NCBI RefSeq assembly: GCF_014204415.1
Contig: NZ_JACHLE010000005.1
Coordinates: 187,145 to 251,144 of the forward strand
From: Chryseobacterium defluvii
Lineage (GTDB): Bacteria; Bacteroidota; Bacteroidia; Flavobacteriales; Weeksellaceae
Reading direction: 5' to 3'
DNA length: 64,000 nucleotides
This document shows, one piece after another, positions 7,739-46,193 of this stretch. The position numbers were made by a program, and so were the translations under genes. Below the pieces are notes generated by a model that was given only the letters and a program-made list of their open reading frames with translations, had not been told where the DNA came from and made no database searches. Every line of letters begins with the position of its first letter. Position 1 is the stretch's first letter.

Positions 7739-8509
7739 TTAATAAAGTTGGTTTATAGAATCTACATCAAGATATTCCGATTTCGGAGTGGTGATCTCAT
7801 TGAACGCTTTGTCCAGATCTCCGTTCAGGAATTCATCTCCTTTTACTACAGTATCCACATAGTTCATGCTTTCAATTACAAAGTTCTGAATACTCGGATT
7901 ATCTAACGCTTTTAATCCAGAAATATTATCAAACTGTAATTTATCACTTATGTTTTTATCAAGGGCAACATCTTTCTCATTATACAGGGAAAGCACTATT
8001 TTGGCATCCTTGAAATAGGTATCGGATTCGTAATATGTTTTAAGGTAAATAGGAACAAATGAAGACATCCATCCGTTCAGGTGGATCACATCCGGAACCC
8101 AGTTAAGTTTCTTGATGGTTTCAATGACTCCTCTGGCAAAGAAAATCGCTCTTTCGTCATTATCGTCGAAAGGCTTGCCTTCATCATCAAAATAGTATTG
8201 TTTTCTTTTAAAATATTCTTCGTTATCTATAAAGTAAACCTGAAGTCTTTCTCCCGGAAGAGAGGCTACTTTGATGATCAGAGGCTGATCCAGGTCATTA
8301 ATAATAATATTCATCCCGGAAAGGCGGATCACCTCATGAAGCTGGAATTTTCGCTCGCTTATTTGTCCAAATCTTGGCATAAAAACTCTTACATCATTGC
8401 CTTCATTGTGCATCTTAAGCGCCATTTTGTTTACCACTGCAGCCATATTGGTATCTTCCTGATAGGGATACATCTCTGTAGTAATGTACAGTATTTTTTG
8501 ATTCGGCAT
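7739..8509 (-). CDS. Glycogen/starch synthase N-terminal-domain-like protein
   Basis: 256 residues. It matches only the N-terminal half of GT5 glycogen synthases: KILYITTEMYPY at the start, then NDVRVFMPRFG, a YFIDN motif and VPDVIHLNGWMSSFVP. The C-terminal GT-B domain is absent. Full-length enzymes are about 470-500 residues. The KTGGLADV-type ADP-glucose loop is replaced by QEDTNMAAVV. Activity as a glycogen synthase is therefore doubtful. It is first in the unit with DUF4270 and glmS, divergent from panC. The function is unknown; a regulatory or glycan-binding role is only a guess. Confidence 0.75.
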   Translation of the reverse strand: MPNQKILYITTEMYPYQEDTNMAAVVNKMALKMHNEGNDVRVFMPRFGQISERKFQLHEVIRLSGMNIIINDLDQPLIIKVASLPGERLQVYFIDNEEYFKRKQYYFDDEGKPFDDNDERAIFFARGVIETIKKLNWVPDVIHLNGWMSSFVPIYLKTYYESDTYFKDAKIVLSLYNEKDVALDKNISDKLQFDNISGLKALDNPSIQNFVIESMNYVDTVVKGDEFLNGDLDKAFNEITTPKSEYLDVDSINQLY

Positions 8510-9628: not shown

Positions 9629-9701
9629 TGACCTGGCTGGGATTCGAACCCAGGACCCATACATTAAAAGTGTATTGCTCTACCAGCTGAGCTACCAGGT
9701 C
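9629..9701 (-). tRNA. tRNA-Lys (anticodon TTT)
   Basis: A complete cloverleaf of 73 nt on the minus strand. The acceptor arms are GACCTGG/CCAGGTC with discriminator A. The D-loop contains AGCTCAGCTGGTAGAGC, the anticodon loop CTTTTAA and the T-arm GGTTCGAATCC. CCA is not encoded. It is identical to the copy at 9896-9968. Confidence 0.97.
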
Positions 9702-9776
9702 GGTCTCACAATTAATAATGATAAATATAAAATTATTTTTTAATTTATCACCATTTAATTATAATTTTTTCTGCAG

Positions 9777-9859
9777 TGCCTGCGACTGGACTCGAACCAG
9801 CACATCCTTAGGAAACCACCCCCTCAAGATGGCGTGTCTACCAATTTCACCACGCAGGC
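9777..9859 (-). tRNA. tRNA-Leu (anticodon GAG)
   Basis: A class II tRNA of 83 nt on the minus strand. The acceptor arms are GCCTGCG/CGCAGGC with discriminator A. The anticodon stem-loop is CCATC-TTGAGGG-GGTGG. A variable arm and the T-arm GGTTCGAGTCC are present. No encoded CCA. Confidence 0.95.
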
Positions 9860-9895
9860 AAAAAAAAACATAATTGCTTATGAATTTTTTGCTTG

Positions 9896-9968
9896 TGACC
9901 TGGCTGGGATTCGAACCCAGGACCCATACATTAAAAGTGTATTGCTCTACCAGCTGAGCTACCAGGTC
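9896..9968 (-). tRNA. tRNA-Lys (anticodon TTT), second identical copy
   Basis: Base-for-base the same as the tRNA-Lys at 9629-9701. It is first in the Lys-Leu-Lys cluster read from the promoter at about 10023-10051. CCA is not encoded. Confidence 0.97.
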
Positions 9969-10022
9969 GGCCACTTGTACAAACGGTTTTCATTGAAATA
10001 ATGTCCTCCGTTTTAAGTGGTG

Positions 10023-10051
10023 CAAAGATATGACTTTTTTTATTTTCTCAA
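10023..10051 (-). promoter_or_regulatory. Promoter of the tRNA cluster (-33 TTG, -7 TATCTTTG)
   Basis: On the minus strand, TTG at 10051-10049 is followed after 18 bp by TATCTTTG at 10030-10023. This is a good match to the flavobacterial TTG-n(~19)-TAnnTTTG promoter. It lies 54 bp upstream of the first tRNA-Lys. Confidence 0.55.
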
Positions 10052-10083
10052 AACTTTTTCGCAAATTTGTTTAAATTTTTATC

Positions 10084-20118: not shown

Positions 20119-20916
20119 TCATTTTATGCTTGTAATATTCCCGCAAAGGTTTTCCAGATGAAAGATCTTGTGAAAAGGGCTTTTCACTTCGTTCAAATGT
20201 TCCTTATCCTGTATAAAGGTATATCGTGAGGCCAGGGAATTCATATCGGAAACAATCACCAGCCAGCATTCATCTACAGAAGTGTCATAATAAGGGAATT
20301 TTTCATTCTTTTTCTCTATCAGTTCCAGGATCTTCTCGGAGCAAAGCTCATCGAACAAATTCATACTATATTCATGGGTAATAAAGACATTCCTTCTGTG
20401 AAAGGATTTTCTGATGCTTTTTATACATCCGGACGGTTTATTTTTTTTGATACTTTTACAGATCGAAAGAATAATTTCCTGCTGGCTTTCCGGATGATCA
20501 AATCTAATATTGGAGTGGAATTCTAAAAAATAAACACCACGATATTTCGTAGTGTCTTCTTGTTCTAAAACTATTTCTGCCTGACGGAAAATTTTATTTA
20601 AGCAGCTTTCAACTTTCTTCATTTCTAAATGGTTGATCACTTCAGTAAGTTCTATTCCTATTTTTTTATTGTTGAACTGGGCAATAAAGTCGGGGCTTTC
20701 ACAGGTAAGGTTTTCAAATTTAACTTCAGGGAAATGATGCATAAAAGAATTGAGCAGCAGAATTTCAGATTTTTTCTTGTACTTCTCCCGGTCATGAAGC
20801 GGAGATTCATCTATGGTACGATGATACCTCTCTATGGGCTTTTTTTTCAAATGCCTGTTCAGGTAATATAAGCTTAGATTCTTGACCAAATCTTCATCTG
20901 AAAATACCTTTTTCAT
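20119..20916 (-). CDS. Hypothetical protein, possible PD-(D/E)XK nuclease-like fold
   Basis: 265 residues, Lys/Glu/His-rich, cytosolic. The stretch SPDFIAQFNNKKIGIELTEV (about 84-103) has the layout PD-x(12)-ExT. This resembles a restriction-endonuclease-like core in which the usual lysine is threonine. An upstream FMHHFPEVKFEN helix-strand and a downstream RGVYFLEFHSN strand fit such a fold. No partner methylase is present. I do not recognise the family, so nuclease activity is only a possibility. Confidence 0.6.
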   Translation of the reverse strand: MKKVFSDEDLVKNLSLYYLNRHLKKKPIERYHRTIDESPLHDREKYKKKSEILLLNSFMHHFPEVKFENLTCESPDFIAQFNNKKIGIELTEVINHLEMKKVESCLNKIFRQAEIVLEQEDTTKYRGVYFLEFHSNIRFDHPESQQEIILSICKSIKKNKPSGCIKSIRKSFHRRNVFITHEYSMNLFDELCSEKILELIEKKNEKFPYYDTSVDECWLVIVSDMNSLASRYTFIQDKEHLNEVKSPFHKIFHLENLCGNITSIK

Positions 20917-21113: not shown

Positions 21114-22778
21114 ATGGATTTTAAAAATTTTAAAATACCTTATAGCGTAGATCCACAATACTCTAAAAAAGTAGCTTATTTTTCTATGGAATTTGCGCTT
21201 GAGCAGGTATTAAAAATATATTCGGGGGGGTTAGGGTTTTTAGCAGGATCTCATATGAGAAGTGCTTATAACCTGAAACAGGACCTTATAGGAATAGGTA
21301 TTTTGTGGAAATTCGGGTATTATGATCAGGCAAGGAATCATGATCAGACCTTACAGCCTGTATGGACGAGAAAAATGTACAGCTTTCTTGAAGACACGGG
21401 AATAAAGTTTCAGATCGAGATTCACAGCGCCCCGGTTTGGGTAAAGGTGTGGTATCTGGATCCTGAAATTTTCAATACGGCTCCTATGTTTTTCCTTTCT
21501 ACGGATGTTCCGGAAAACGATCATATTTCAAAAACAATTTGCCATAAGCTTTATGATGCCAATGAATCTACCAAGCTGGCACAATATATCCTGTTAGGAA
21601 AAGGAGGGGCAAAACTGCTGGATGAAATGAATATCGAAAGGGATATCTATCACCTGAACGAAGCTCACGGCCTTCCTGCAGCATTCCATTTACTGAAAAA
21701 GTATAACGGGGATATTAACAAGGTAAAGGAAAAGTTGGTTTTCACTACCCATACTCCTGAAGAGGCAGGAAATGAGAAGCATAATTTAAGGCTATGCTAT
21801 GACATGTCTTATTTTTCCGGCTTCAGCATGGAAGAGGTAAAACGTATTGAAGGGGCAGATGATGACCGTTTCAATCATTCTCTTTGCGCCCTGAAAATGG
21901 CAAGAATTGCCAATGGGGTTTCCCAGCTTCACGGAGTGGTTTCCAGAACCATGTGGAGCAAATATCAGGGAATCTGTGAGATCACTTCTATTACCAATGC
22001 ACAGGAATTCAAATACTGGTCAGATAAACCTCTTTACAATGCTAAGGACGAAAATGATGAAACGGTCTTCGATTACCGAAAAAAGCATTTAAAAAAGAGA
22101 CTTTTCAAAATAGTTGCCGACCAGACCGGAAATTTATTCGATCCGAATGTTTTCACGATCGTCTGGGCAAGAAGGTTTGCCGGCTATAAGCGTGCCGATC
22201 TCCTTTTACATGATAAAGAAAGGTTCCACAGGCTATTGAACCATCCAAAATATCCGGTACAGATTATCTGGGCAGGAAAGCCTTATCCGATGGATTATTC
22301 TGCGATCTCCACTTTCAACACTTTAGTTGAAGAAAGTAAAAATCATAAAAACATGGCTGTTTTAACGGGCTATGAACTTTCTCTGAGTAAATCTCTGAAA
22401 CAGGGTTCAGACCTGTGGTTAAACAATCCAAGGGTTCCACGGGAAGCATCAGGTACTTCCGGTATGACGGCTGCGATGAACGGTTCTGTAAATCTTTCGA
22501 CCGATGACGGATGGATCCCTGAGTTTGCAAAACACGGCGAAAATTCTTTTGTAGTCCCTAAAGCTGATTATATGAACATGAGCATTTACGAGCAGGACAA
22601 TTATGATCTTAACAAATTATATGAGATCCTCGAGAACGAAATACTTCCTGCATACTACGACAATCCAAAAAAATGGAGAAAAATACAGTACACTGCCATG
22701 AATGATGTTAAAGACCAATTCAACAGTGACAGGATGGCGGATGGATATTATAACGTGCTTTATAATTATAAAAGATAG
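21114..22778 (+). CDS. Short alpha-glucan phosphorylase-like protein (GT35) lacking the PLP lysine
   Basis: 554 residues. Family marks include VAYFSMEFAL, YSGGLGFLAGSH, HLNEAHG, FTTHTP, WARRFAGYKRADLL and GSDLWLNNPRVPREASGTSGM. The phosphorylase signature is EAxGxxxMK, in which Lys carries pyridoxal phosphate. Here the residue is Thr (about residue 452, codon ACG at 22467-22469). The usual GKAHP segment is also changed to GKPYP. The length is shorter than classic GlgP (about 800). It may be a divergent family without phosphorylase chemistry. It stands alone. Confidence 0.82.
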   Translation: MDFKNFKIPYSVDPQYSKKVAYFSMEFALEQVLKIYSGGLGFLAGSHMRSAYNLKQDLIGIGILWKFGYYDQARNHDQTLQPVWTRKMYSFLEDTGIKFQIEIHSAPVWVKVWYLDPEIFNTAPMFFLSTDVPENDHISKTICHKLYDANESTKLAQYILLGKGGAKLLDEMNIERDIYHLNEAHGLPAAFHLLKKYNGDINKVKEKLVFTTHTPEEAGNEKHNLRLCYDMSYFSGFSMEEVKRIEGADDDRFNHSLCALKMARIANGVSQLHGVVSRTMWSKYQGICEITSITNAQEFKYWSDKPLYNAKDENDETVFDYRKKHLKKRLFKIVADQTGNLFDPNVFTIVWARRFAGYKRADLLLHDKERFHRLLNHPKYPVQIIWAGKPYPMDYSAISTFNTLVEESKNHKNMAVLTGYELSLSKSLKQGSDLWLNNPRVPREASGTSGMTAAMNGSVNLSTDDGWIPEFAKHGENSFVVPKADYMNMSIYEQDNYDLNKLYEILENEILPAYYDNPKKWRKIQYTAMNDVKDQFNSDRMADGYYNVLYNYKR

Positions 22779-28962: not shown

Positions 28963-30996
28963 TTATAGAGGCAGATAAGTTATGAATATGCTGGAACCTG
29001 GTGTTTCTCTATATTGGCCGTTACTTCTTGAAAGGACACTTTCAATGCTTATCTGTTCATTAGCATTAAGAATTACTGTTCTGGTAACATTAGTTGTACC
29101 TTCACCCTCTTTCCATCTTGAGCCTATCAGCTGAACAGCATCTCCCCCTACCGACAGCTTTAAAGTAACTCCTAAACGTGCATTCGCACCATCATCAGCA
29201 TTATTAATAGATGGAATATTACTAAATTTCCCCCATACCTCAATGGTATATATTCCTCCTTTCTTTACCCTGAATGTGTTAGAATCTACTCTTTCTATAT
29301 AATCAGTATTGATTTTTCTTGTATTTTGAATCGCCAAAGGCCTGCTTACATCGTCTGCATTTCTCAATACAGATTGCGTGCTTGTAGCATACAATGCAAA
29401 GGAAGGTAAATCCATATCAAATTTCTTCAATGTTCCGGAACTTGTGATCCCTAAATACCGGTCGGTATCTCCCAAATTACCACTGGGCACACTACGGAAT
29501 CTTGCATTACCGTCAACATCCAGCTTACTTAAAGGATCAGTAACTCCCACTCCTAAACGCCCCGAAACTATACCGCCACCACGAACATCCAGTTTAGCTT
29601 CTGGAGAAACGGTTCCAATACCAAAGTTTCCATTGGTATCTAGTGTGGCCCTATTTGTTCCAACCCCAAATATCAATGGCCCGGAAGAGGTATTGGTTCC
29701 AATAAACAATTCTGAACTGCCGGTAGACAATAATCTGGAAGCTCCTCCAGCCAGAAGCTCCATATCCAACGTACGATTTGAATTAACCAAAGCTCTCACC
29801 AAAGAACTGGAACTTCCTCTGGTAATCAGTCGGGTATATCCTGAGAGAGTTGCATTAACATCAAAGGCAATATGATTATTTGCATTTGTTTGGAACCATA
29901 ACATTCTATTATCGGTAGAAACAATCCTGTCTTCGGTCAGTGTTCCATCAGAATTGTAAATATTAACACTCTGCGGAAGGGTAACGGAGCTTGAAGGCAC
30001 TCCATTTACTCTAGTGATGAGAGTGTTTCCTGAAACGGTATTGCTTACACTATTAATGATGGGGGCTGTACGGGATATCCCGTTGACCGTAGAGGTCATG
30101 GTATTCCCTGAACTGCTCAGTACATTCGTTGTAGCCGCTGTGATAGCAGGAGACAGATTAATGGCTCCGCTTGCCACCCCATTCACGCTACTGGTCAAAC
30201 TGCTACCTGATAAGGAAAGGGTATTACTATTAATAATGGGAACGGTAGTGCCGGATACTCCGTTGACTGTGGTTGATAAGGTATTTCCGGAAACTGTATT
30301 ACCTACTGTCTTCACCGCTGTAGTGCTTGCTGCCACTCCGTTCACAGTGGAAGTAAGGGTATTGTTGCCCACTCCTCCGCTTATCAGTGTGTTAGTGGTA
30401 CCCGAGGTAATAAGAGAAGCCAAATTTACAGTAGATGCTACTCCGTTCACAGTGCTGGTTAGGTTATTCCCTGATAAGGAAAGTGCATTGCTGTTGACTA
30501 TGGGTGCGGAGGAGGATATTCCGTTCACCGTGGAGGTAGCCGTATTACCTGTACTGGTCAGTACATTGGTAATGGAGATGGTACCGGATGATGGAATAAA
30601 CGGCTTCCACGTACCTCCGTTGATGTCTCTCGATTTGTTATCATAATACCAGAAACCGGAGGTTAAGGTTCCTTCTGTTGTCCCTACTCCTGCTACTCCG
30701 CCTGTATTGGTATTGTATACGACAAATCCGTCATAATAGCTCGGGAAAGAGGTAGGAAGGCCTATCGGGGCTCCTCCGAAAGAAGTGAAAGTGGTAAGGT
30801 CTACTCTTGGGTATAATAAGCCTTTGCCTGTATTGGAAGAGCTATTGTAGGTAGCATTGGAGGAAGCATCTATAAAGGCTGAGCTGCCTGTGACTGCAAG
30901 ATTGGTGGTGCTGTTGGCAATCCTTATCTGGGAGTGGGCTGCACTACCCCATACGATTGCACCGATCATCATGATCTGTCTGATCTCTTTTTTCAT
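28963..30996 (-). CDS. Secreted repeat protein with VNG repeats and C-terminal jelly-roll module
   Basis: 677 residues. A signal peptide ends near AAHSQ (about residue 23). A module ending FWYYDNKSRDINGGTW comes first. Then seven copies of a T-S-x-VNG-(V/I) repeat (VNG at about 157, 183, 218, 244, 271, 304, 330). Next is a region with FGIGTVSPEAKLDVRGG and LGVGVTDPLSKLDVDG. The C-terminal segment GIYTIEVWGKF to IFITYLPL looks like a C1q/TNF-type jelly roll. Such layouts recall tail-fibre-like surface proteins. Ligand unknown. Confidence 0.78.
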   Translation of the reverse strand: MKKEIRQIMMIGAIVWGSAAHSQIRIANSTTNLAVTGSSAFIDASSNATYNSSSNTGKGLLYPRVDLTTFTSFGGAPIGLPTSFPSYYDGFVVYNTNTGGVAGVGTTEGTLTSGFWYYDNKSRDINGGTWKPFIPSSGTISITNVLTSTGNTATSTVNGISSSAPIVNSNALSLSGNNLTSTVNGVASTVNLASLITSGTTNTLISGGVGNNTLTSTVNGVAASTTAVKTVGNTVSGNTLSTTVNGVSGTTVPIINSNTLSLSGSSLTSSVNGVASGAINLSPAITAATTNVLSSSGNTMTSTVNGISRTAPIINSVSNTVSGNTLITRVNGVPSSSVTLPQSVNIYNSDGTLTEDRIVSTDNRMLWFQTNANNHIAFDVNATLSGYTRLITRGSSSSLVRALVNSNRTLDMELLAGGASRLLSTGSSELFIGTNTSSGPLIFGVGTNRATLDTNGNFGIGTVSPEAKLDVRGGGIVSGRLGVGVTDPLSKLDVDGNARFRSVPSGNLGDTDRYLGITSSGTLKKFDMDLPSFALYATSTQSVLRNADDVSRPLAIQNTRKINTDYIERVDSNTFRVKKGGIYTIEVWGKFSNIPSINNADDGANARLGVTLKLSVGGDAVQLIGSRWKEGEGTTNVTRTVILNANEQISIESVLSRSNGQYRETPGSSIFITYLPL
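29962..30564 (-). repeat. Protein-coding tandem repeat (seven VNG units)
   Basis: Within the 677-residue gene, the codons for VNG-containing units recur seven times with spacings of about 26, 35, 26, 27, 33 and 26 residues. Nucleotide similarity between units is visible ('actccgttcac' type blocks). Copy number could change by slippage or recombination. Confidence 0.7.
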
Positions 30997-31036: not shown

Positions 31037-31615
31037 TTAATAGCCTGATATAATGGACCATGGGGAGGTGGCATCACCGGTGTACATCAATATGTTGGAC
31101 TGCCCGCTGATCAGGTATTGGTTAGCTGTTTCTCTTGGAACAGGGGTGAGCAGAACATCTTCTGAACCAATAAGGGAAACATAGATCTTTTTGCCTACCG
31201 CTACTCCTGTGGTGGGAAGGGTGAGACGGGTTCCTACCGTGTTATTGGTGTACAGAATGATATCATCTGTAGGCAATGCGGTATAACTGCCATTCTGGTA
31301 GATAACATTAAGGGGCGGATTTGAAGCTGAGGATCCGCCGGCTCTTACCCATTTGGAACCGTCATTATAGTACAATCCGGGGGTAACATCTGAAACAGAT
31401 GCCGTATTATAGACCATCATCCCCGCTACATGTGCACTTAAGGGAGAAGGACTGGAGGTAGAGCTTAAAGCAATACGGGTATTGAGAATACCTTTGGTAT
31501 TGGATACCACATCCAAAGCAGCATCTGTATTGGGGGAAGAGGTATTGATTCCCACTTGAGCAAAGGAGAAGAATGAGACAAAAATAGTCCCAAGAAGAAT
31601 TAATCTTTTTTTCAT
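31037..31615 (-). CDS. Secreted surface protein (small)
   Basis: 192 residues. The signal peptide MKKRLILLGTIFVSFFSFAQ is followed by VGINTSSPNTDAALDVVSNT, the N-terminal module shared with its neighbours. Next come HVAGMMVYNTASVSDVTPGLYYNDGSKWV and a C-terminal beta region (ILYTNNTVGTRLTLPTTGVAVGKKIYV). No enzyme motif. It lies 40 bp before the 677-residue gene on the same strand. Probably cell-surface, role unknown. Confidence 0.75.
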   Translation of the reverse strand: MKKRLILLGTIFVSFFSFAQVGINTSSPNTDAALDVVSNTKGILNTRIALSSTSSPSPLSAHVAGMMVYNTASVSDVTPGLYYNDGSKWVRAGGSSASNPPLNVIYQNGSYTALPTDDIILYTNNTVGTRLTLPTTGVAVGKKIYVSLIGSEDVLLTPVPRETANQYLISGQSNILMYTGDATSPWSIISGY

Positions 31616-31752
31616 TGTGTATTTATGTTTTTAGAATTTATTTTATGCCATCATAAGACATTTTCCATAATTTTAAGTGATCTATTATTTAAACTTAATA
31701 TTATCATGGCCGGAAGAAAATTAAAATGACAGGGAACATTGAATTTTTATCT

Positions 31753-32664
31753 TTAAAGCTTGGTAACGATTAAATATCCGTAATTGTCACTACTATTGGG
31801 CTTATTCATATAACAATCCTGTGCAGCGTAGCTATCTCCTCCTACATAATTGATGAGTAAAGCAACCTTTTCATTCATAGAAGTACTTTGATATGCTACC
31901 ACCAGTTTTTGCGGATTAGCATAGGCATATCTGGAACTGCTCACTGATCCGGAAGCATTTCTCCTAGCAACAAGATAATCCCTGAAGATCGTATTGGTTG
32001 TGTATACTGAGCTTCCTGCATTTGCTGCTGCAAAAACAGTATTGAGTTCGATCTGCCCCGTATTTGACTGAGAGGTGGGAACACTGTCACACCGGGCTGT
32101 CTGATACATCTCAAAAAGATACACCCCCGGCTCAGGAATAATCAGATAGTTCAGATTACTAACAGCCCGCCCGTTAACCGTACCCGAAGGCTCAGAACCA
32201 AACCCAAAACCAACGGTATTTCCTCTAACATCCGTTCCGTTGATAAATGGTATACTGGTATAAGTATTGGTATTGGATAGGGAAAAATTGCCAAAACCTG
32301 TGGTCCTCTTATAATAAAAATATTTTATATCCGTAAGCTTTACTTTTGCAGCCCCTGAAGCATCAGCCCCTAACGGACTGTAAGGAGGAGATAATACCGG
32401 CAGATTCTGATGTTTCACATCCGTTTTTACATGAAACCTGTCAGTTGGACCAGATGCTCCTAAATTAATTCCCATATTTCCGTTATCCAGCATTTCCAAT
32501 AACTTCTGATTATCCGAGTTGTTAATTTCGAGAGCTTTGGTCGCAGAAGTATTTCCTTTAGAAACGATATCAAATGCAGCAGAGGGAACAGCCGTATTAA
32601 TACCCACCTGGCCTGATATGCTGGTACAAACCATAATAAAAAATATAAATATTACCTTTTTCAT
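31753..32664 (-). CDS. Secreted surface protein, paralogue of the next gene
   Basis: 303 residues. A signal peptide ends near SISGQ. The shared N-module VGINTAVPSAAFDIVSKGNT follows, then TKALEINNSDNQKLLEMLDN and GNMGINLG. The rest is a beta-rich C-terminal domain with GVYLFEMYQTA and VALLINYVGG. It aligns end to end with the 305-residue protein 11 bp upstream (32676-33593), so the two are a tandem duplication. The C-domain looks like a C1q/TNF-type jelly roll (inference). Confidence 0.75.
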   Translation of the reverse strand: MKKVIFIFFIMVCTSISGQVGINTAVPSAAFDIVSKGNTSATKALEINNSDNQKLLEMLDNGNMGINLGASGPTDRFHVKTDVKHQNLPVLSPPYSPLGADASGAAKVKLTDIKYFYYKRTTGFGNFSLSNTNTYTSIPFINGTDVRGNTVGFGFGSEPSGTVNGRAVSNLNYLIIPEPGVYLFEMYQTARCDSVPTSQSNTGQIELNTVFAAANAGSSVYTTNTIFRDYLVARRNASGSVSSSRYAYANPQKLVVAYQSTSMNEKVALLINYVGGDSYAAQDCYMNKPNSSDNYGYLIVTKL

Positions 32665-32675
32665 AATAGTTCAGA

Positions 32676-33593
32676 CTATAATTTAGAAATATTCATTGTT
32701 ACTTTATTACTAAGGCCCGGAGGAGTTGCGAATGAGCATACATTCGAAGGAAAAGTATCTCCAAAGCCGAAATTAACAAATAATGCTACTTTTTCATTGG
32801 CCGTTGTCGTTTCAAAAATTAGGAATACGGTGTGCGGCAATGCAAAATTATATGGGTTGGTTGCTAAGGTTCCCGAATCATTTCTTCGGGGTAATCCGTT
32901 ATATCGTACGACGGCTTGCCTTATATAATTGGTACTTCCTGCTGCTGCTTTAAAAAGAACGGTTCCAACTCCAAGTATGGTACCAGTGGTATCCGCAGGT
33001 GACCCGGAACATGAAGTATAATAATTCAGGTTTATTTTATATACACCCGGATTGGGAAACGATATATGCCTGACATTGGTATAAGAAAGCGTTGAAGCAT
33101 CCAATGTTGCAGAAGCATCTGTTCCGAATGTTGCGCCGATAGTATTGGTTACCGATTCAGCTAAAGTCAGTGGAATATTAGTATAATTATTAGTGTCAGA
33201 CAGAGGAAATGAGGAAGTTGCAGTAGTTGAAGCGAGCTCCATATATAAATATTTGGTAGGTTCGGGCACATATGTTCCTACTGTTCCGTCATCTTTTATG
33301 GCCATAGGGGTTATATTTCCAGAAACTACCGGGAGATTTTCATACCTGACGCTCCCGTTCGTATGGAATTTAGCCGTAGGATTGGGTACGTTAATACCTA
33401 CATTTCCATTATCTAAAATGGTAAAAATCTCCGTTCCCAAAGAATTGTTGATTTCCAAAGCTTTGGTTGAAGAAGTATTTCCTTTAGAAACTATATCTAA
33501 AGCTGCAGAAGGACTACTCTGGTTAATGCCCACTTGGGTAAATGCAAAGAAAGGTAACAAAACAGTAAAGAGAACAATTGTATTTTTTTTCAT
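32676..33593 (-). CDS. Secreted surface protein, paralogue of the previous gene
   Basis: 305 residues. A signal peptide (about 1-19, ending AFTQ) is followed by VGINQSSPSAALDIVSKGNT, TKALEINNS and GNVGINVPNPTAKFHTNG. The beta-rich C-domain has GVYKINLNYYTS and KVALFVNFGFGD. It is a duplicate of 31753-32664, with the front third most alike. It likely shares the transcript with the downstream copy (11 bp gap). Confidence 0.75.
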   Translation of the reverse strand: MKKNTIVLFTVLLPFFAFTQVGINQSSPSAALDIVSKGNTSSTKALEINNSLGTEIFTILDNGNVGINVPNPTAKFHTNGSVRYENLPVVSGNITPMAIKDDGTVGTYVPEPTKYLYMELASTTATSSFPLSDTNNYTNIPLTLAESVTNTIGATFGTDASATLDASTLSYTNVRHISFPNPGVYKINLNYYTSCSGSPADTTGTILGVGTVLFKAAAGSTNYIRQAVVRYNGLPRRNDSGTLATNPYNFALPHTVFLIFETTTANEKVALFVNFGFGDTFPSNVCSFATPPGLSNKVTMNISKL

Positions 33594-33662
33594 TTTTAAA
33601 CTATAATTATGTTTTGAAATATCATCCTTAAATTCCTGGCGGAATTTAGAATTTAATTTTTA

Positions 33663-34640
33663 TCAGGGGGTTGCCGATAGCTGTAACAAGGAAAAATTCC
33701 TGCTTTCAGATAAAGAGGCAGGCGAATTAATTTCTACGTTTGTTGTTGGTTTATTATATGCTGCCCAGTTCATGGTAAGATATATCTTATCACCAGTATT
33801 AAGGTGAACTATACAATTGACATTGATTGGGGAATTTCCCAGCGATGCCGTCTCATTGTCCAGATTTGCCCTATTTCCTCCAATAATGTCCGTAATTGCA
33901 GTACCATTCTTAGTAATATTAAGGTTAATACCCGTGAAAGCATTTGTACCGGAAACAGTACCACCACTTCCAAAATAAGCGTAACCTTCTATTTTATAAA
34001 TCCCGGATTCCTTTATTTCCCAGTAATCTCCTGCATCATTCCACACAGCAGAGCCTCCTTGATTAACAATGATATCTCCAACTGAAAAAGGTACTATCTG
34101 AGGAATACCGTTATTAAAATTTGTAAAAGCTGCTCCTGTATAAGTATGTGTATCCGAAGCTCCCAAAGCCGCTATGGTAGGAGTCGCTTTATTAATCAGA
34201 AGTGCTACTTCCCAAGTGGTTCCACTGGCAGTCCCTTTGCTGATTAACATGATATATCCTCCCGGTGTAAGAGATACATTGGAAACTCCCGCACCGGACT
34301 GATTATCTATAAGTTCAGATCCGCTGGCTGCTATAGTAAGATTAGCTGCACCTACATTCTTAATGTAATAAACCCTTCCCAATATATTTCCGGAAGCAGG
34401 AGCTGCCGCTATTGCCGCAGGTAAAGTAAATGTTCCTATTGCCGATCCTGTGTAAGCAGTATAAAAATCACCTGCCCCCAGCGCCGTGGATGTCGATACA
34501 TTTCTATATCGTCCTGCAATGGAACCACTTACTGTAAGGGTACTCCCCGGTAAAACTGTATTTATACCAACATTTCCTGTTTGAGCATATAAAAAACACG
34601 AAAATGTCACTAAAGCTGAAATAACAAATAAATTTTTCAT
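33663..34640 (-). CDS. Secreted protein with C1q-like C-terminal domain
   Basis: 325 residues. A signal peptide is followed by TGNVGINTVLPGSTLTVSG, then a middle region with IDNQSGAGVSNVSLTPGGYIMLIS. The C-terminal domain (about 210-325) has GIYKIEGYAYFGSGG, LNITKNGTAITDIIGG, LNTGDKIYLTMNW and SLLQLSA. Strand order and the 'GIYKIEGYAYF...LNITKNG...LNTGDKIYL' pattern resemble C1q/TNF-type jelly rolls. Partner unknown. It lies 93 bp after the frameshifted small frame. Confidence 0.75.
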   Translation of the reverse strand: MKNLFVISALVTFSCFLYAQTGNVGINTVLPGSTLTVSGSIAGRYRNVSTSTALGAGDFYTAYTGSAIGTFTLPAAIAAAPASGNILGRVYYIKNVGAANLTIAASGSELIDNQSGAGVSNVSLTPGGYIMLISKGTASGTTWEVALLINKATPTIAALGASDTHTYTGAAFTNFNNGIPQIVPFSVGDIIVNQGGSAVWNDAGDYWEIKESGIYKIEGYAYFGSGGTVSGTNAFTGINLNITKNGTAITDIIGGNRANLDNETASLGNSPINVNCIVHLNTGDKIYLTMNWAAYNKPTTNVEINSPASLSESRNFSLLQLSATP

Positions 34641-34733
34641 GGCCGTATAATTTTAAAGTTGATCCGGAATTTAGAATCGGTACAGCTCTATGAAGAGCTA
34701 TACCTATCTTTCATTACTTGTGTGTTTAGAATC

Positions 34734-34894
34734 TCATTTCTCCTTCTTCAATGCGTCAATTTCTTTTCTTAATTGTGCAATTTGCTGCTGCTGCTCTTTT
34801 ACTGCGTTCACCAGTATTTTGGTAAGAGCACTTTCGTCAAGTTCACATTTATCTTTTAGTCTACTTTTTTAGTATCATCTATAGTATTTACCAT
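34734..34894 (-). pseudogene. Small coiled-coil reading frame broken by a frameshift
   Basis: From the ATG at 34894 the frame reads MVNTIDDTKKVD and stops. A -1 shift at the six-A run (34870-34865) joins it to the open frame KSRLKDKCELDESALTK, then VKEQQQQIAQLRKEIDALKKEK, which ends at 34734. The whole would be about 54 residues. The tail is a typical coiled coil. The shift point TAAAAAA is not a canonical slippery heptamer, so a mutation or assembly error is more likely than programmed shifting. Confidence 0.55.
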
Positions 34895-34922
34895 ATTTTG
34901 TATGTTTTTTAAATAACCACGA

Positions 34923-35651
34923 TTAATTTAAACGTCTCAATGTTACTTGGGTTACTGGTCCTGATCCTGTAGTACCGGAGCTAAATGCTCTTACAGTAAC
35001 AAAACTGGTATTAGTAACCCTAAATGAATAGGTATGAGAAGCCAACATGGCTATAGAAGTAATAAGAGTATATGTTTGTAAATCTCCCGTATCGGCCATA
35101 AATTGGTCATTTACTCTAGCTACCCAAGCATTGGTTGTATTATCCCAAATACCTACTACAGGATTATCAAATTGGGTCGTACTCAGTTGTGCATTTATTG
35201 TAACCTGATAAGTCCCGTTAGCACCTACTGTGAAAGAATTGGTAGCAGCAGTACCAACATACCGATTCTGATTATCTATGATTTCATTATTAAGATTTCC
35301 TATTGCTTGTGGCGTAGAAGTACTTGTAGTTGTATAGTTGGCTGTCATCTGGACTGTTATTTCCTGAGCTACAGTAGGAGTTCCATTTACCAAAATCAAT
35401 GTACCTGAACCTGTATAGCTTGTCCATGAAGGGGCTACACCCGGACCATTTGATTGTAAAAATTGTCCTGCTGACCCTGCACTTCCTGCTGTTGATGCCG
35501 TTCCTCCTACATTGAATTCATTAGTCAACTGTACAGATCCATTAATATGTAAAGTTTTTTGAGGGACAGAAGTATTAATCCCTACATTACCAGTCTGAGC
35601 AAAAAAGACTCCGCAAGAAGCAAGTCCTAAAAGGGTAATAATTTTTTTCAT
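34923..35651 (-). CDS. Secreted surface protein, first of the cluster
   Basis: 242 residues. A signal peptide ends at VFFAQ. The module TGNVGINTSVPQKTLHINGS follows, then an Ala/Gly/Ser linker (GGTASTAGSAGSAGQFLQSNG) and SWTSYTGSGTLILVNGTP. The C-terminal beta region (GTYQVTINAQLS to VTQVTLRRLN) is like its neighbours' jelly-roll modules. It is the promoter-proximal gene of the run of surface genes, with the ACTGC array and a TAGATTTG box upstream. Confidence 0.78.
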   Translation of the reverse strand: MKKIITLLGLASCGVFFAQTGNVGINTSVPQKTLHINGSVQLTNEFNVGGTASTAGSAGSAGQFLQSNGPGVAPSWTSYTGSGTLILVNGTPTVAQEITVQMTANYTTTSTSTPQAIGNLNNEIIDNQNRYVGTAATNSFTVGANGTYQVTINAQLSTTQFDNPVVGIWDNTTNAWVARVNDQFMADTGDLQTYTLITSIAMLASHTYSFRVTNTSFVTVRAFSSGTTGSGPVTQVTLRRLN

Positions 35652-43431: not shown

Positions 43432-45144
43432 ATGGATACAGTTCAGCAAAAAGGACACCCGAAAGGTTTGTGGGTTCTTTTCAGCACAGAGATGTGGGAG
43501 CGTTTCAACTTTTATGGAATGAGGGCTATTCTCAGTCTATTTATGGTTCACGCTTTAATGTTAGGTGAATCAAATGCTTCTATCATTTATGGTGGATTTC
43601 TTGCATTATGTTACCTTACTCCCTTATTAGGTGGTTTTATTTCGGATAGATTTCTAGGTAACAGATACTGTATTATTTTAGGAGGTAGTTTAATGGCTAT
43701 TGGCCAATTATTATTATTCTATAGTGCAAGTACCTTTGATGGTAATCTTGATTTATCAAAGAGTGTATTTTGGCTAGGACTTCTTGTAATTATATTTGGA
43801 AACGGATTTTTCAAACCAAATATTTCTTCAATGGTTGGAAGTCTTTATCCACCTAGTGAGAAAACAAAATTAGACTCTGCATTTACTATATTTTATATGG
43901 GAATTAACATCGGAGCATTATTGAGTCAGTATTTTGTTCCTATGATTGCAGACGTTGTAGTTGATGGTAAACAAGACCCTTATGTTTTTAAATGGGGATA
44001 CCTTCTTGCCGCAATAGCAATGATTTTGGGTACTCTTATATTCTTTTTCCTAAAAAATAAATATGTGGTAACGCCGGAAGGAAGACCTATCGGCGGATTG
44101 CCAAAACATAACACAAGTGCAGATTTCGAAGAAGGAGAAACTCAGACTGCCAAGTTTTCAGGAGCGTCTTTGGGTATTACCGGTTTAATATTTGTTGCAC
44201 TGTTTTTTGTATTCAGATATATATTGGTAGGTGAATTCGGATTCAGTTCTGTAGAAATGGGACAATTGATTAAAGGAATTATTTATCCTTTCATCTATTC
44301 TGCCGGTATCTCCTTGGCATTCCTCATTATGAGCTCTGCAGAAAATAAGGTGGAGAGACAAAGAATCTGGGTAATTTATATCGTATCATTTTTCATCATT
44401 TTTTTCTGGGCAGCATTTGAACAAGCAGGTTCTTCATTGACTTTCATTGCATCGAATCAGACCGACAGAACATTCTTATTCGGTTGGCAAATGCCGGCTT
44501 CAATGGTACAAATCTTCAATGGTTTATTTGTAGTTATATTAGCTGTCCCATTCAGTTTGATGTGGGATAATCTTAGAGCCAAAGGAAAAGAACCTATTTC
44601 TCCCTTTAAACAAGCTTTAGGTTTAGCGCTTATTGCCCTTTCATATTTTATTATAGCCTACAATGTAAAGGACTTAGGAAATAGTGGCTTACTTGCTATC
44701 AAATGGCTCATTCTTCTTTATTTTATCCAGACCTGTGGTGAGCTTTGCTTATCTCCGATCGGTTTATCCTTGGTGGGTAAACTGGCTCCAAAAAGGTTTG
44801 CTTCATTATTGTATGGTGTATTCTTTATTTCCAATGCAGCAGGCTATGCCTTAGCTGGTACTTTAGGTTCAATCCTACCGGCAACGGGTGATAAGTTCAA
44901 AAAAGCCCAGGAAATTGGAGTAAACTTACAAGATGTCTTAGATAAAAAAGTAACCTTAAATCCTGATCAGGTTGCAGCATTTGAAAAAGCTCAGTTACCA
45001 TTACAAAACCCTACCTTTGCCGGATTTGAAATTCACAATTTATTCGAATTCTTTATGGTATTCGTTGTTTTGTGTGGTATTGCAGCAGTAATTTTAGCAT
45101 TAATTTCTCCGGTCCTGAAGAGAATGATGCATGGCGTAAAGTAA
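43432..45144 (+). CDS. POT family proton-dependent peptide transporter
   Basis: 570 residues. It has FSTEMWERFNFYGMRAIL, LCYLTPLLGGFISDRFLG, GNGFFKPNISSMVGSLYP and GELCLSPIGLSLVGKLAP. It has 12-14 membrane helices. It differs from the first and third copies by a soluble insert near 490-530 (QEIGVNLQDVLDKKVTLNPDQ). A terminator follows, then the DUF1016 gene. Confidence 0.94.
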   Translation: MDTVQQKGHPKGLWVLFSTEMWERFNFYGMRAILSLFMVHALMLGESNASIIYGGFLALCYLTPLLGGFISDRFLGNRYCIILGGSLMAIGQLLLFYSASTFDGNLDLSKSVFWLGLLVIIFGNGFFKPNISSMVGSLYPPSEKTKLDSAFTIFYMGINIGALLSQYFVPMIADVVVDGKQDPYVFKWGYLLAAIAMILGTLIFFFLKNKYVVTPEGRPIGGLPKHNTSADFEEGETQTAKFSGASLGITGLIFVALFFVFRYILVGEFGFSSVEMGQLIKGIIYPFIYSAGISLAFLIMSSAENKVERQRIWVIYIVSFFIIFFWAAFEQAGSSLTFIASNQTDRTFLFGWQMPASMVQIFNGLFVVILAVPFSLMWDNLRAKGKEPISPFKQALGLALIALSYFIIAYNVKDLGNSGLLAIKWLILLYFIQTCGELCLSPIGLSLVGKLAPKRFASLLYGVFFISNAAGYALAGTLGSILPATGDKFKKAQEIGVNLQDVLDKKVTLNPDQVAAFEKAQLPLQNPTFAGFEIHNLFEFFMVFVVLCGIAAVILALISPVLKRMMHGVK

Positions 45145-45161
45145 TTCTATCAAAATATGGT

Positions 45162-45192
45162 AAAAACCTCTGCAAAGTCAGAGGTTTTTTTT
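45162..45192 (+). terminator. Intrinsic terminator after the second POT gene
   Basis: An 11-bp perfect stem (AAAAACCTCTG, loop CAAAGT) is followed by a T-run. It starts 18 bp after the stop at 45144 and ends just before the DUF1016 start. Confidence 0.85.
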
Positions 45193-45203
45193 ATTTTCGT
45201 GTG

Positions 45204-46193
45204 ATGGAAGTTTCTGAAGATTCTTTATTTCAGTCCGTAAAGGAAATCATTAAACAGTCGCGCGAGAAAGTTTTTCGCATAGCGAACTCCACTTTATTGC
45301 TTACCTATTGGCAGATCGGACAACTCATTGTAGAAGATGAGCAAAATGGAAAAGAACGGGCTGCTTATGGGAAATATACTTTAAGGAATCTTTCAGAAAA
45401 ATTGACTTTAGAATTTGGAAAAGGTTTTGATTATACCAATCTCTCCAATATGCGCAGGTTTTATCTCGCTTTTCCAATTGTTGACGCATTGCGTCAACAA
45501 TTGACATGGACTCATTACAGATTATTGTTAAAAGTAGATGATAAGAAAAAAATTGAATATTATATCAATGAATCTATCCAGAATAACTGGAATTCCAGAG
45601 ACCTAAAAAGACAAATCAGCTCTCTTGCTTATGAGAGAGTTTTGGAACATAAAAAATCTCCATCGGAAAATATCCACAGTGTTCTGAAAGACCCTTATAT
45701 TTTTGAATTTTTGGGATTAAAACAAAGTGAGAAAATTTCTGAGAAAGATATTGAATCTGCCATTATTGACCATATCCAAAAATTTCTGCTTGAATTTGGA
45801 AAAGGGTTTGCCTTTGTTGCTAGACAGCAGCATATTTCTACAGATACTTCAGATTTTTATATAGACCTGGTCTTTTATAATTATATCTTAAAATGTTTTG
45901 TAATCATCGACCTGAAAACCGGAGAACTTTCTCATCAGGATATCGGACAGATTGATATGTATGTAAGAATGTATGACGATTTGAAGCGAAATGACGGAGA
46001 TAACCCAACAATAGGAATTTTATTGTGTACTGAAAAAGATGAAACCGTTGTAAAGTACTCTGTACTCAATGACAAAAATAATCTTTTTGCAAGTAAATAT
46101 TTATTATATCTTCCTAAAGAAGAAGAATTAAAACAAATTATTGATCAGGACAGAATTCGTTTTGAATTAGATCGCGACAACAATTTAACTTAA
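45204..46193 (+). CDS. DUF1016 / YhcG-type PD-(D/E)XK nuclease
   Basis: 329 residues from the ATG at 45204. Any longer frame would overlap the transporter gene and the terminator. The N-terminal DUF1016 helix domain has LLTYWQIGQLIVEDEQNG and NLSNMRRFYLAFPIVDALRQ, then LTWTHYRLLLKV. The C-terminal nuclease core has YIDLVFYN and FVIIDLKTGEL, then IGQIDMYVRMYDD. These give the D-(x)n-DxK catalytic set. Family members are solitary nucleases or accessory nucleases of restriction systems. It lies between two POT genes without a methylase. A 29-bp palindrome lies inside it at 45475-45503. Confidence 0.9.
   Translation: MEVSEDSLFQSVKEIIKQSREKVFRIANSTLLLTYWQIGQLIVEDEQNGKERAAYGKYTLRNLSEKLTLEFGKGFDYTNLSNMRRFYLAFPIVDALRQQLTWTHYRLLLKVDDKKKIEYYINESIQNNWNSRDLKRQISSLAYERVLEHKKSPSENIHSVLKDPYIFEFLGLKQSEKISEKDIESAIIDHIQKFLLEFGKGFAFVARQQHISTDTSDFYIDLVFYNYILKCFVIIDLKTGELSHQDIGQIDMYVRMYDDLKRNDGDNPTIGILLCTEKDETVVKYSVLNDKNNLFASKYLLYLPKEEELKQIIDQDRIRFELDRDNNLT
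45475..45503. repeat. 29-bp perfect palindrome inside the DUF1016 gene
   Basis: CAATTGTTGACGCA, one T, then the exact reverse complement of the first arm. It codes for part of IVDALRQQLT and sits at the link to the LTWTHYR segment. A palindrome of this length in a coding region is unusual. Confidence 0.9.

Follow-up and report, generated by a model that had tools for sequence, protein, structure and literature searches.

The window analysed here, a stretch of 64,000 nucleotides from Chryseobacterium defluvii, encodes a GT35-like protein of 554 residues in which the lysine that binds pyridoxal phosphate (PLP) in glucan phosphorylases is replaced by threonine. Replacement of this lysine by Thr, Ser or Ala is a trait of one Bacteroidota clade, which is almost certainly conserved and functional. 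In our reading, which we hold with about even confidence and which builds on sequence comparison, the clade is a monophyletic GT35-type branch that retains the GT-B site and most likely acts in glycogen metabolism as an active α-glucan glucosyl-transferring enzyme to which no PLP is covalently bound. The use of PLP by glycogen phosphorylase is a textbook curiosity, since a cofactor of amino-acid chemistry serves there through its phosphate alone. A natural clade that lacks the anchor but keeps the other catalytic residues makes the role of PLP, and of its predecessor, directly testable. No report of a GT35 protein lacking this lysine was found in the open-access literature searched, most subscription papers being outside the scope of that search.

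The gene and its cofactor-lysine column

The open reading frame, 21114–22778 on the forward strand, starts with ATG and is intact. The translation includes REASGTSGMTAAMNG and WAGKPYPMDY. The block EASGTSGMT (residues 444–452, 22443–22469), the counterpart of EASGT..MK in PLP phosphorylases, aligns without a gap to EASGT(G/S)NMK of MalP and GlgP. Thr452, with the codon ACG at 22467–22469, thereby falls in the column of K646, which PMC11046441 gives as the PLP lysine of Escherichia coli MalP. ACG is found at the same place in the source assembly, which is the same source and hence no independent read. The threonine described in the first-pass annotation is borne out by the reading frame, by the translation and by the relatives. 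That annotation had also considered a shifted alignment with another lysine at the PLP site, but no lysine was found from residue 430 to residue 472, and together with the gap-free block this means that a shifted lysine cannot substitute at the PLP column.

How general the replacement is

We compared 108 proteins of the clade, all from Bacteroidota and 51–95% identical to the window protein (105 open reading frames from Bacteroidota loci, the window protein and two plasmid-borne genes, from Pontibacter and Runella), with 30 other TIGR02094 proteins that are 28–36% identical to it, 15 from Bacteroidota and 15 plasmid-borne. The column holds Thr in 96, Ser in 11 and Ala in one of the 108, and Lys in none, while Lys is found in all 30 others. 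Among the 105 Bacteroidota reading frames the block ends in MT in 93 (EASGTSGMT), in MS in 11 and in MA in one; the 15 other Bacteroidota members all have Lys, and in the plasmid-borne proteins Lys was read by the motif pattern in 14 and by full alignment in the one from Arthrobacter. The best 80 of 170 relative-encoding stretches (79 named Chryseobacterium and one Weeksellaceae) gave Thr 70, Ser 9, Ala 1 and Lys 0, written in eight codons that include all four ACN, and 27 more distant relatives have Thr or Ser.

In a phylum sample of 198 Bacteroidota genomes, 24 carry 26 genes of the lysine-less type, with 52–100% identity. A DNA pattern scan of 395 Bacteroidota genomes (171 genera) located the block at 44 places, spread over 40 genomes of 26 genera; by their letters 41 have Thr and three have Ser, and all are within the window's own class. 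The backwards control gave none among the matches listed. The pattern requires EASGTSGM[T/S/A]A-type codons, and other lysine-less forms would escape it. Outside Bacteroidota the sample consisted of plasmid records only, 399 with a match, 17 of which were read at the lysine column.

The first-pass annotation had suggested that the whole short family might have dropped the PLP lysine, and had proposed an alignment of short phosphorylase-like proteins. The suggestion stands for the Bacteroidota clade but does not extend to short proteins as a whole. In plasmid records of Chlamydiota, Alpha- and Gammaproteobacteria and Cyanobacteria, ten TIGR02094 members with 544–619 residues keep the lysine (Simkania, Criblamydia, Microvirga, Aulosira, Pseudorhizobium, Ancylobacter, Methylophaga pinxianii, Indioceanicola, Chroococcidiopsis and Roseomonas), and so does a Bacteroidota family member of 614 residues, counted over the whole open frame (locus L184). 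These proteins resemble the window protein in size and domain make-up but differ from it in the lysine at the PLP column. As all 11 short relatives examined retain it, shortness as the cause of the loss is ruled out, and the short family in question narrows to the Bacteroidota clade.

Residues switched and residues kept

Three positions change together with the lysine. Residues 388–392 (22275–22289) read GKPYP where Lys-bearing TIGR02094 proteins mostly have GKAHP, as had been noted from the window alone, and Lys429 (22398–22400) is invariant in the clade. P390, Y391 and K429 are each found in 108/108 lysine-less and 0/30 Lys-bearing proteins; the latter have Ala (29) or Ser (1) at position 390, His (29) or Pro (1) at 391, and Val (21), Thr (6), Ile (2) or Phe (1) at 429. 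Position 421 is Glu in 108/108 of the clade, as compared to Asp in 22, Asn in seven and Glu in one of the Lys-bearing set. The residue before GKPYP is Ala in 92 and Ser in 16 of the clade proteins, and a pattern demanding Ala before GK matched 64 of the 80 Chryseobacterium-type proteins (best 80 of 170 loci); since the variation is Ser for Ala in front of GK, the GKPYP motif itself holds.

The other family marks are intact, as the first-pass annotation had stated. In RRFAGYKR (residues 353–360, 22170–22193), Arg354 and Lys359, which correspond to MalP R535 and K540 and represent the phosphate-binding pair of GT-B enzymes, are invariant in 108/108 and 30/30. The same is true of His213 (21750–21752; MalP H346 and, presumably, rabbit H377), and of E26, G39, L40, E183, N295, Y358, Y420, E444, G447, T448, S449 and G450. 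N295 and W302 (21996–22019; MalP N450 and W457) are each present in 108/108 of the clade. His185 (21666–21668; MalP H310), W302, K389 and S446 are found in 108/108 of the clade and 29/30 of the Lys-bearing set, and position 353 is Arg in 107 clade members and Lys in one. Thus the GT-B catalytic residues H213, N295, R354, K359 and E444 are complete in all 108 proteins.

At least 95% conservation was seen at 147 of the 554 positions in an alignment of 36 clade members. When the window gene was paired with nine Chryseobacterium-type genes, dN/dS was 0.014–0.031 in the five pairs that could be estimated, where dS was high (1.7–2.9), and dS was saturated in the other four. The lysine-less gene is under strong purifying selection; neither relaxed selection nor frame damage, the marks of a pseudogene, was seen. 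The invariance of the other GT-B catalytic residues examined and a dN/dS of about 0.02 imply that the gene is not decaying. An AlphaFold2 model made from 46 close sequences was poor (mean pLDDT 43.3).

Family assignment

The window protein scored 430.3 bits against TIGR02094 (cut-off 191.7) and 64.1 bits against Pfam PF00343, Phosphorylase (cut-off 27). It fell below the cut-offs of TIGR02093, the classical phosphorylases (51.8 against 552.9 bits), and of TIGR02095, GlgA (38.1 against 328.45 bits), and so it does not class as a GT5 synthase. Neither does it class as a PLP-dependent glucan phosphorylase (EC 2.4.1.1) by the PLP lysine, which is found in 0/108 of the clade. One cannot conclude from the sequence that the protein is no phosphorylase, and a putative loss of phosphorolysis is a question separate from that of the lysine.

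The best match in the PDB was 9l6i (E 4e-68), a TIGR02094 α-glucan family phosphorylase (solved as 9l6i and 20yr; 852–872 residues). It belongs to the same profile family and has the same GT-B residues, but keeps the PLP lysine at the aligned column (EASGTSGEK) where the window protein has Thr together with GKPYP. TIGR02094 scores were 404.9–436.5 bits in six lysine-less proteins as compared to 475.6–573.1 in five short Lys-bearing ones. The columns of R535, K540, H346, N450 and E638 of MalP are common to E. coli MalP/GlgP (TIGR02093) and the clade, whereas K646 has no equivalent in it.

There are also similarities to the ADP-glucose-dependent GT5 synthase GlgA, which like the GT3 enzymes works without PLP. 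R-x4-K, E-x-x-G, N-x6-W and a Tyr (GlgA Y355) align with the clade, but GT5 has EPCGL and [GS]R where the clade has EASGTSG and the basic pair RR. Y420 aligns with GlgA Y355 and W302 also has a GT5 counterpart, and therefore these two residues need not signify PLP. R353 aligns with MalP K534, which we take to be a contact of the PLP phosphate; Gly or Ser is found there in 12 aligned GT5 synthases, so at this place the clade is phosphorylase-like and not synthase-like. A drift of the sequence towards GlgA found no support, as the TIGR02095 scores of five of six lysine-less proteins (23.4–45.8 bits, none listed for the sixth) overlap those of five Lys-bearing ones (22.1–41.2 bits). In a global hhalign comparison of the Lys-bearing profile with GlgA, the match spanned 50 columns only and carried no meaning.

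Two lysine-less genes carry the public annotation glgP, α-glucan family phosphorylase, and all six lysine-less proteins scanned exceed the cut-off of TIGR02094, a model of that name. As a consequence, many Bacteroidota may be represented in metabolic models with a phosphorylase that they perhaps lack.

Genome context and the link to glycogen

The genome of C. defluvii has glgB, glgA and glgC consecutively and several GH13 genes, two of them above α-amylase cut-offs, and a search of it found no other PF00343 or TIGR02094 gene. The window itself contains, at 7739–8509 on the reverse strand, a protein of 256 residues that corresponds solely to the N-terminal region of a GT5 glycogen synthase (it matches positions 2–167 of TIGR02095 and 5–226 of NF010698), the full glgA being elsewhere in the genome. 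Retention of a GlgA-GT5 fragment in Bacteroidetes is described in PMC11046441.

In a class sample of 129 genomes, 13 had a lysine-less gene and 10 a Lys-bearing TIGR02094 gene, with the motif read in all 23. A Lys-bearing GT35 gene beside a lysine-less one was found in 0/24 genomes of the phylum sample and 0/13 of the class sample, although the mutual exclusion in the class sample is not significant alone (p 0.60). Genes for glgC or a GT3 synthase were found in 11/13 genomes with a lysine-less gene and 12/116 without (Fisher p 3e-8), and in 5/10 with and 18/119 without a Lys-bearing gene (p 0.016), and glgB in 7/13 with and 12/116 without a lysine-less gene (p 0.0005); these p-values are too small, since the thresholds were our own choice and the species are not independent. 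We accepted glgC matches with E below 1e-120, which gave 13 genomes (11 above the curated cut-off), and GT3 matches with E up to 1e-40, which gave 10 genomes (five lysine-less ones with a full-length gene and five Lys-bearing ones with a partial gene). A GlgA reading frame was present in 10/10 fetched glgC regions. Two of the 13 genomes with the lysine-less gene, G076 and G111, had neither glgC nor GT3 at these thresholds, which speaks against a link. At the genome level, the lysine-less gene goes with glycogen synthesis. Seven genomes with glgC (G002, G021, G025, G241, G273, G302 and G308) gave no GT35 gene with or without the lysine. They too count against the link, and their hosts may make glycogen while lacking any phosphorylase-like gene.

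A conserved operon was not found, as no neighbour family was common to more than four of 20 distant loci. Ten neighbours scanned against Pfam were mostly unrelated; the one α-glucan enzyme was the product of a GH13 cyclomaltodextrinase-like gene, which is transcribed divergently to the lysine-less gene of locus L125. Within Chryseobacterium the position of the locus is conserved. A divergent gene of 265 residues (20119–20916, reverse strand) lies nearby in the window, and its homologue in 21/21 sampled Chryseobacterium-type loci, window included, and in 0/20 distant loci.

Plasmid-borne TIGR02094 genes from several phyla (L227, L229, L230, L233–L236 and L243) adjoin genes for DUF1622, DUF2934 or CBS-domain proteins, for type II GAPDH, phosphoketolase or phosphoglucomutase, or for metal efflux. 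Some of these neighbours, DUF1622 and type II GAPDH, are found beside short Lys-bearing genes and also beside the lysine-less Pontibacter copy. These neighbourhoods are perhaps a mobile stress and carbon island. On a Runella plasmid (L228) a gene annotated as 'pyridoxamine 5'-phosphate oxidase family' (9642–10082) starts 31 bases past the end of the lysine-less gene, in this one case.

Proposed function

According to PMC11046441, PLP phosphorylases carry PLP on a lysine in their C-terminal domain, and the acid-base role towards the substrate phosphate falls to the 5'-phosphate of the cofactor. The same account proposes that PLP may have taken the place of a nucleoside monophosphate, in a proto-GT35 that depended on NDP-sugars. 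From the composition of the column, we infer that covalent PLP has been lost in the clade. The anion- and glucose-binding residues are kept, the anchor residue is small and the GKAHP loop has been re-made, which is why we propose a transferase that is probably active without covalent PLP. It is conceivable that R353, R354, K359 and the EASGTS loop would still hold two phosphate groups beside the glucosyl C1, one of which in a PLP phosphorylase is the 5'-phosphate of the cofactor. The place of this second phosphate, and the space freed by the change from Lys to Thr, Ser or Ala, could then be taken by a diffusible nucleotide diphosphate, either NDP-glucose acting as the donor or NDP acting as the acceptor, in the manner of the GT5 and GT3 glycogen synthases. 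The emptied PLP site most likely takes up some diffusible ligand that bears phosphate, for which a nucleotide is a tentative suggestion. Extended to the whole GT35 branch it would describe a B6-free glycogen phosphorylase, either a reversal from phosphorylase to nucleotide-sugar enzyme or, in the boldest version, a survivor of a PLP-free proto-GT35 ancestral to all glycogen phosphorylases, and we are rather doubtful of this bolder form.

The strongest rival is that the protein is still a glucan phosphorylase, in which PLP, or pyridoxine or pyridoxamine phosphate, sits in the site with no Schiff base or is anchored by a different lysine. Its 5'-phosphate would serve as acid-base as usual, and the enzyme would fill the breakdown step in genomes that make glycogen. 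We consider this rival unlikely on the whole. Residues that surround the cofactor are kept (R353 in 107/108; W302, Y420, T448 and S449 in 108/108), and a phosphorylase with a reduced Schiff base stays active, the imine being dispensable. Furthermore, the 24 and 13 genomes showed no Lys-bearing GT35 gene, while 11 of the 13 have glycogen markers. As most genomes with the gene already have markers of glycogen synthase, a second synthase would be redundant and a phosphorylase would be the missing step, and this speaks for PLP held non-covalently and against a nucleotide. The composition of the column points the other way, since Lys is absent from 108 proteins although AAR is one base from ACR, only small residues replace it, and the linked changes at 390, 391 and 429 look like a re-made pocket. 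As for another lysine as the anchor, there is none from 430 to 472, and K429, nine residues past Y420, would presumably lie at the opposite end of that helix.

It has also to be considered that the protein is catalytically dead and serves in glucan binding or regulation. The stem on which the cofactor anchor was lost is long, with 1.91 changes per column in a 64-row tree, as is usual when a protein takes on a new function, and the gene mostly stands alone, outside any glycogen operon. A pseudoenzyme, however, will usually have lost several of its catalytic residues, while here every other catalytic position examined is invariant in 108/108 and dN/dS is about 0.02, which makes this explanation improbable.

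Origin of the lysine-less clade

In the 64-row tree the 32 clade members form one side of a branch with an SH-aLRT support of 100. When the tree is rooted with MalP/GlgP, the clade groups with the long Lys-bearing TIGR02094 proteins (support 88) and is hence nested in TIGR02094. Two GT5 GlgA sequences as outgroup instead placed the root on the lysine-less stem (SH-aLRT 84 and 92), but here long branches may meet. That rooting is what would be expected if a branch of GT35 older than PLP survives, in which the lysine was never present, with the PLP phosphorylases as a later development. When 12 GT5 and four GT3 sequences served as outgroups, the clade again fell inside TIGR02094 in the best tree, with a TIGR02094 branch support of only 23, and a tree uniting all Lys-bearing GT35 proteins is just 0.58 log-units worse (p-AU 0.504). 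The conserved columns lean to nesting: 19 unite the clade and TIGR02094 against MalP/GlgP and four unite TIGR02094 and MalP/GlgP against the clade, and of the columns polarised by GT5 two speak for nesting and none for a relic. The confinement of the lysine-less block to the window's class in the 395 scanned Bacteroidota genomes also argues against an ancient branch. Taken together, a surviving pre-PLP branch appears very improbable, and a secondary loss of the lysine within TIGR02094 is favoured by the sequence comparisons.

Decay of this single gene or a base-call error, which the first-pass annotation had raised as ACG is one base from AAG, is refuted by the eight codons in the best 80 of 170 loci, by the relatives, close and distant, that lack Lys at this column, and by the low dN/dS in five of nine pairs.

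Other features of the window

Two further regions of the window were observed. Between 41620 and 47721 there are three large look-alike reading frames for transporters, presumably POT-type, with the motif EMWERF, and between the second and the third lies a reading frame of a different type (45072–46193). On the reverse strand, 28963–30996 encodes a protein of 677 residues with many degenerate copies of an (S/N)TVNGV-type repeat, and it adjoins a run of smaller reading frames (31037–35651) whose starts resemble secretion signals.
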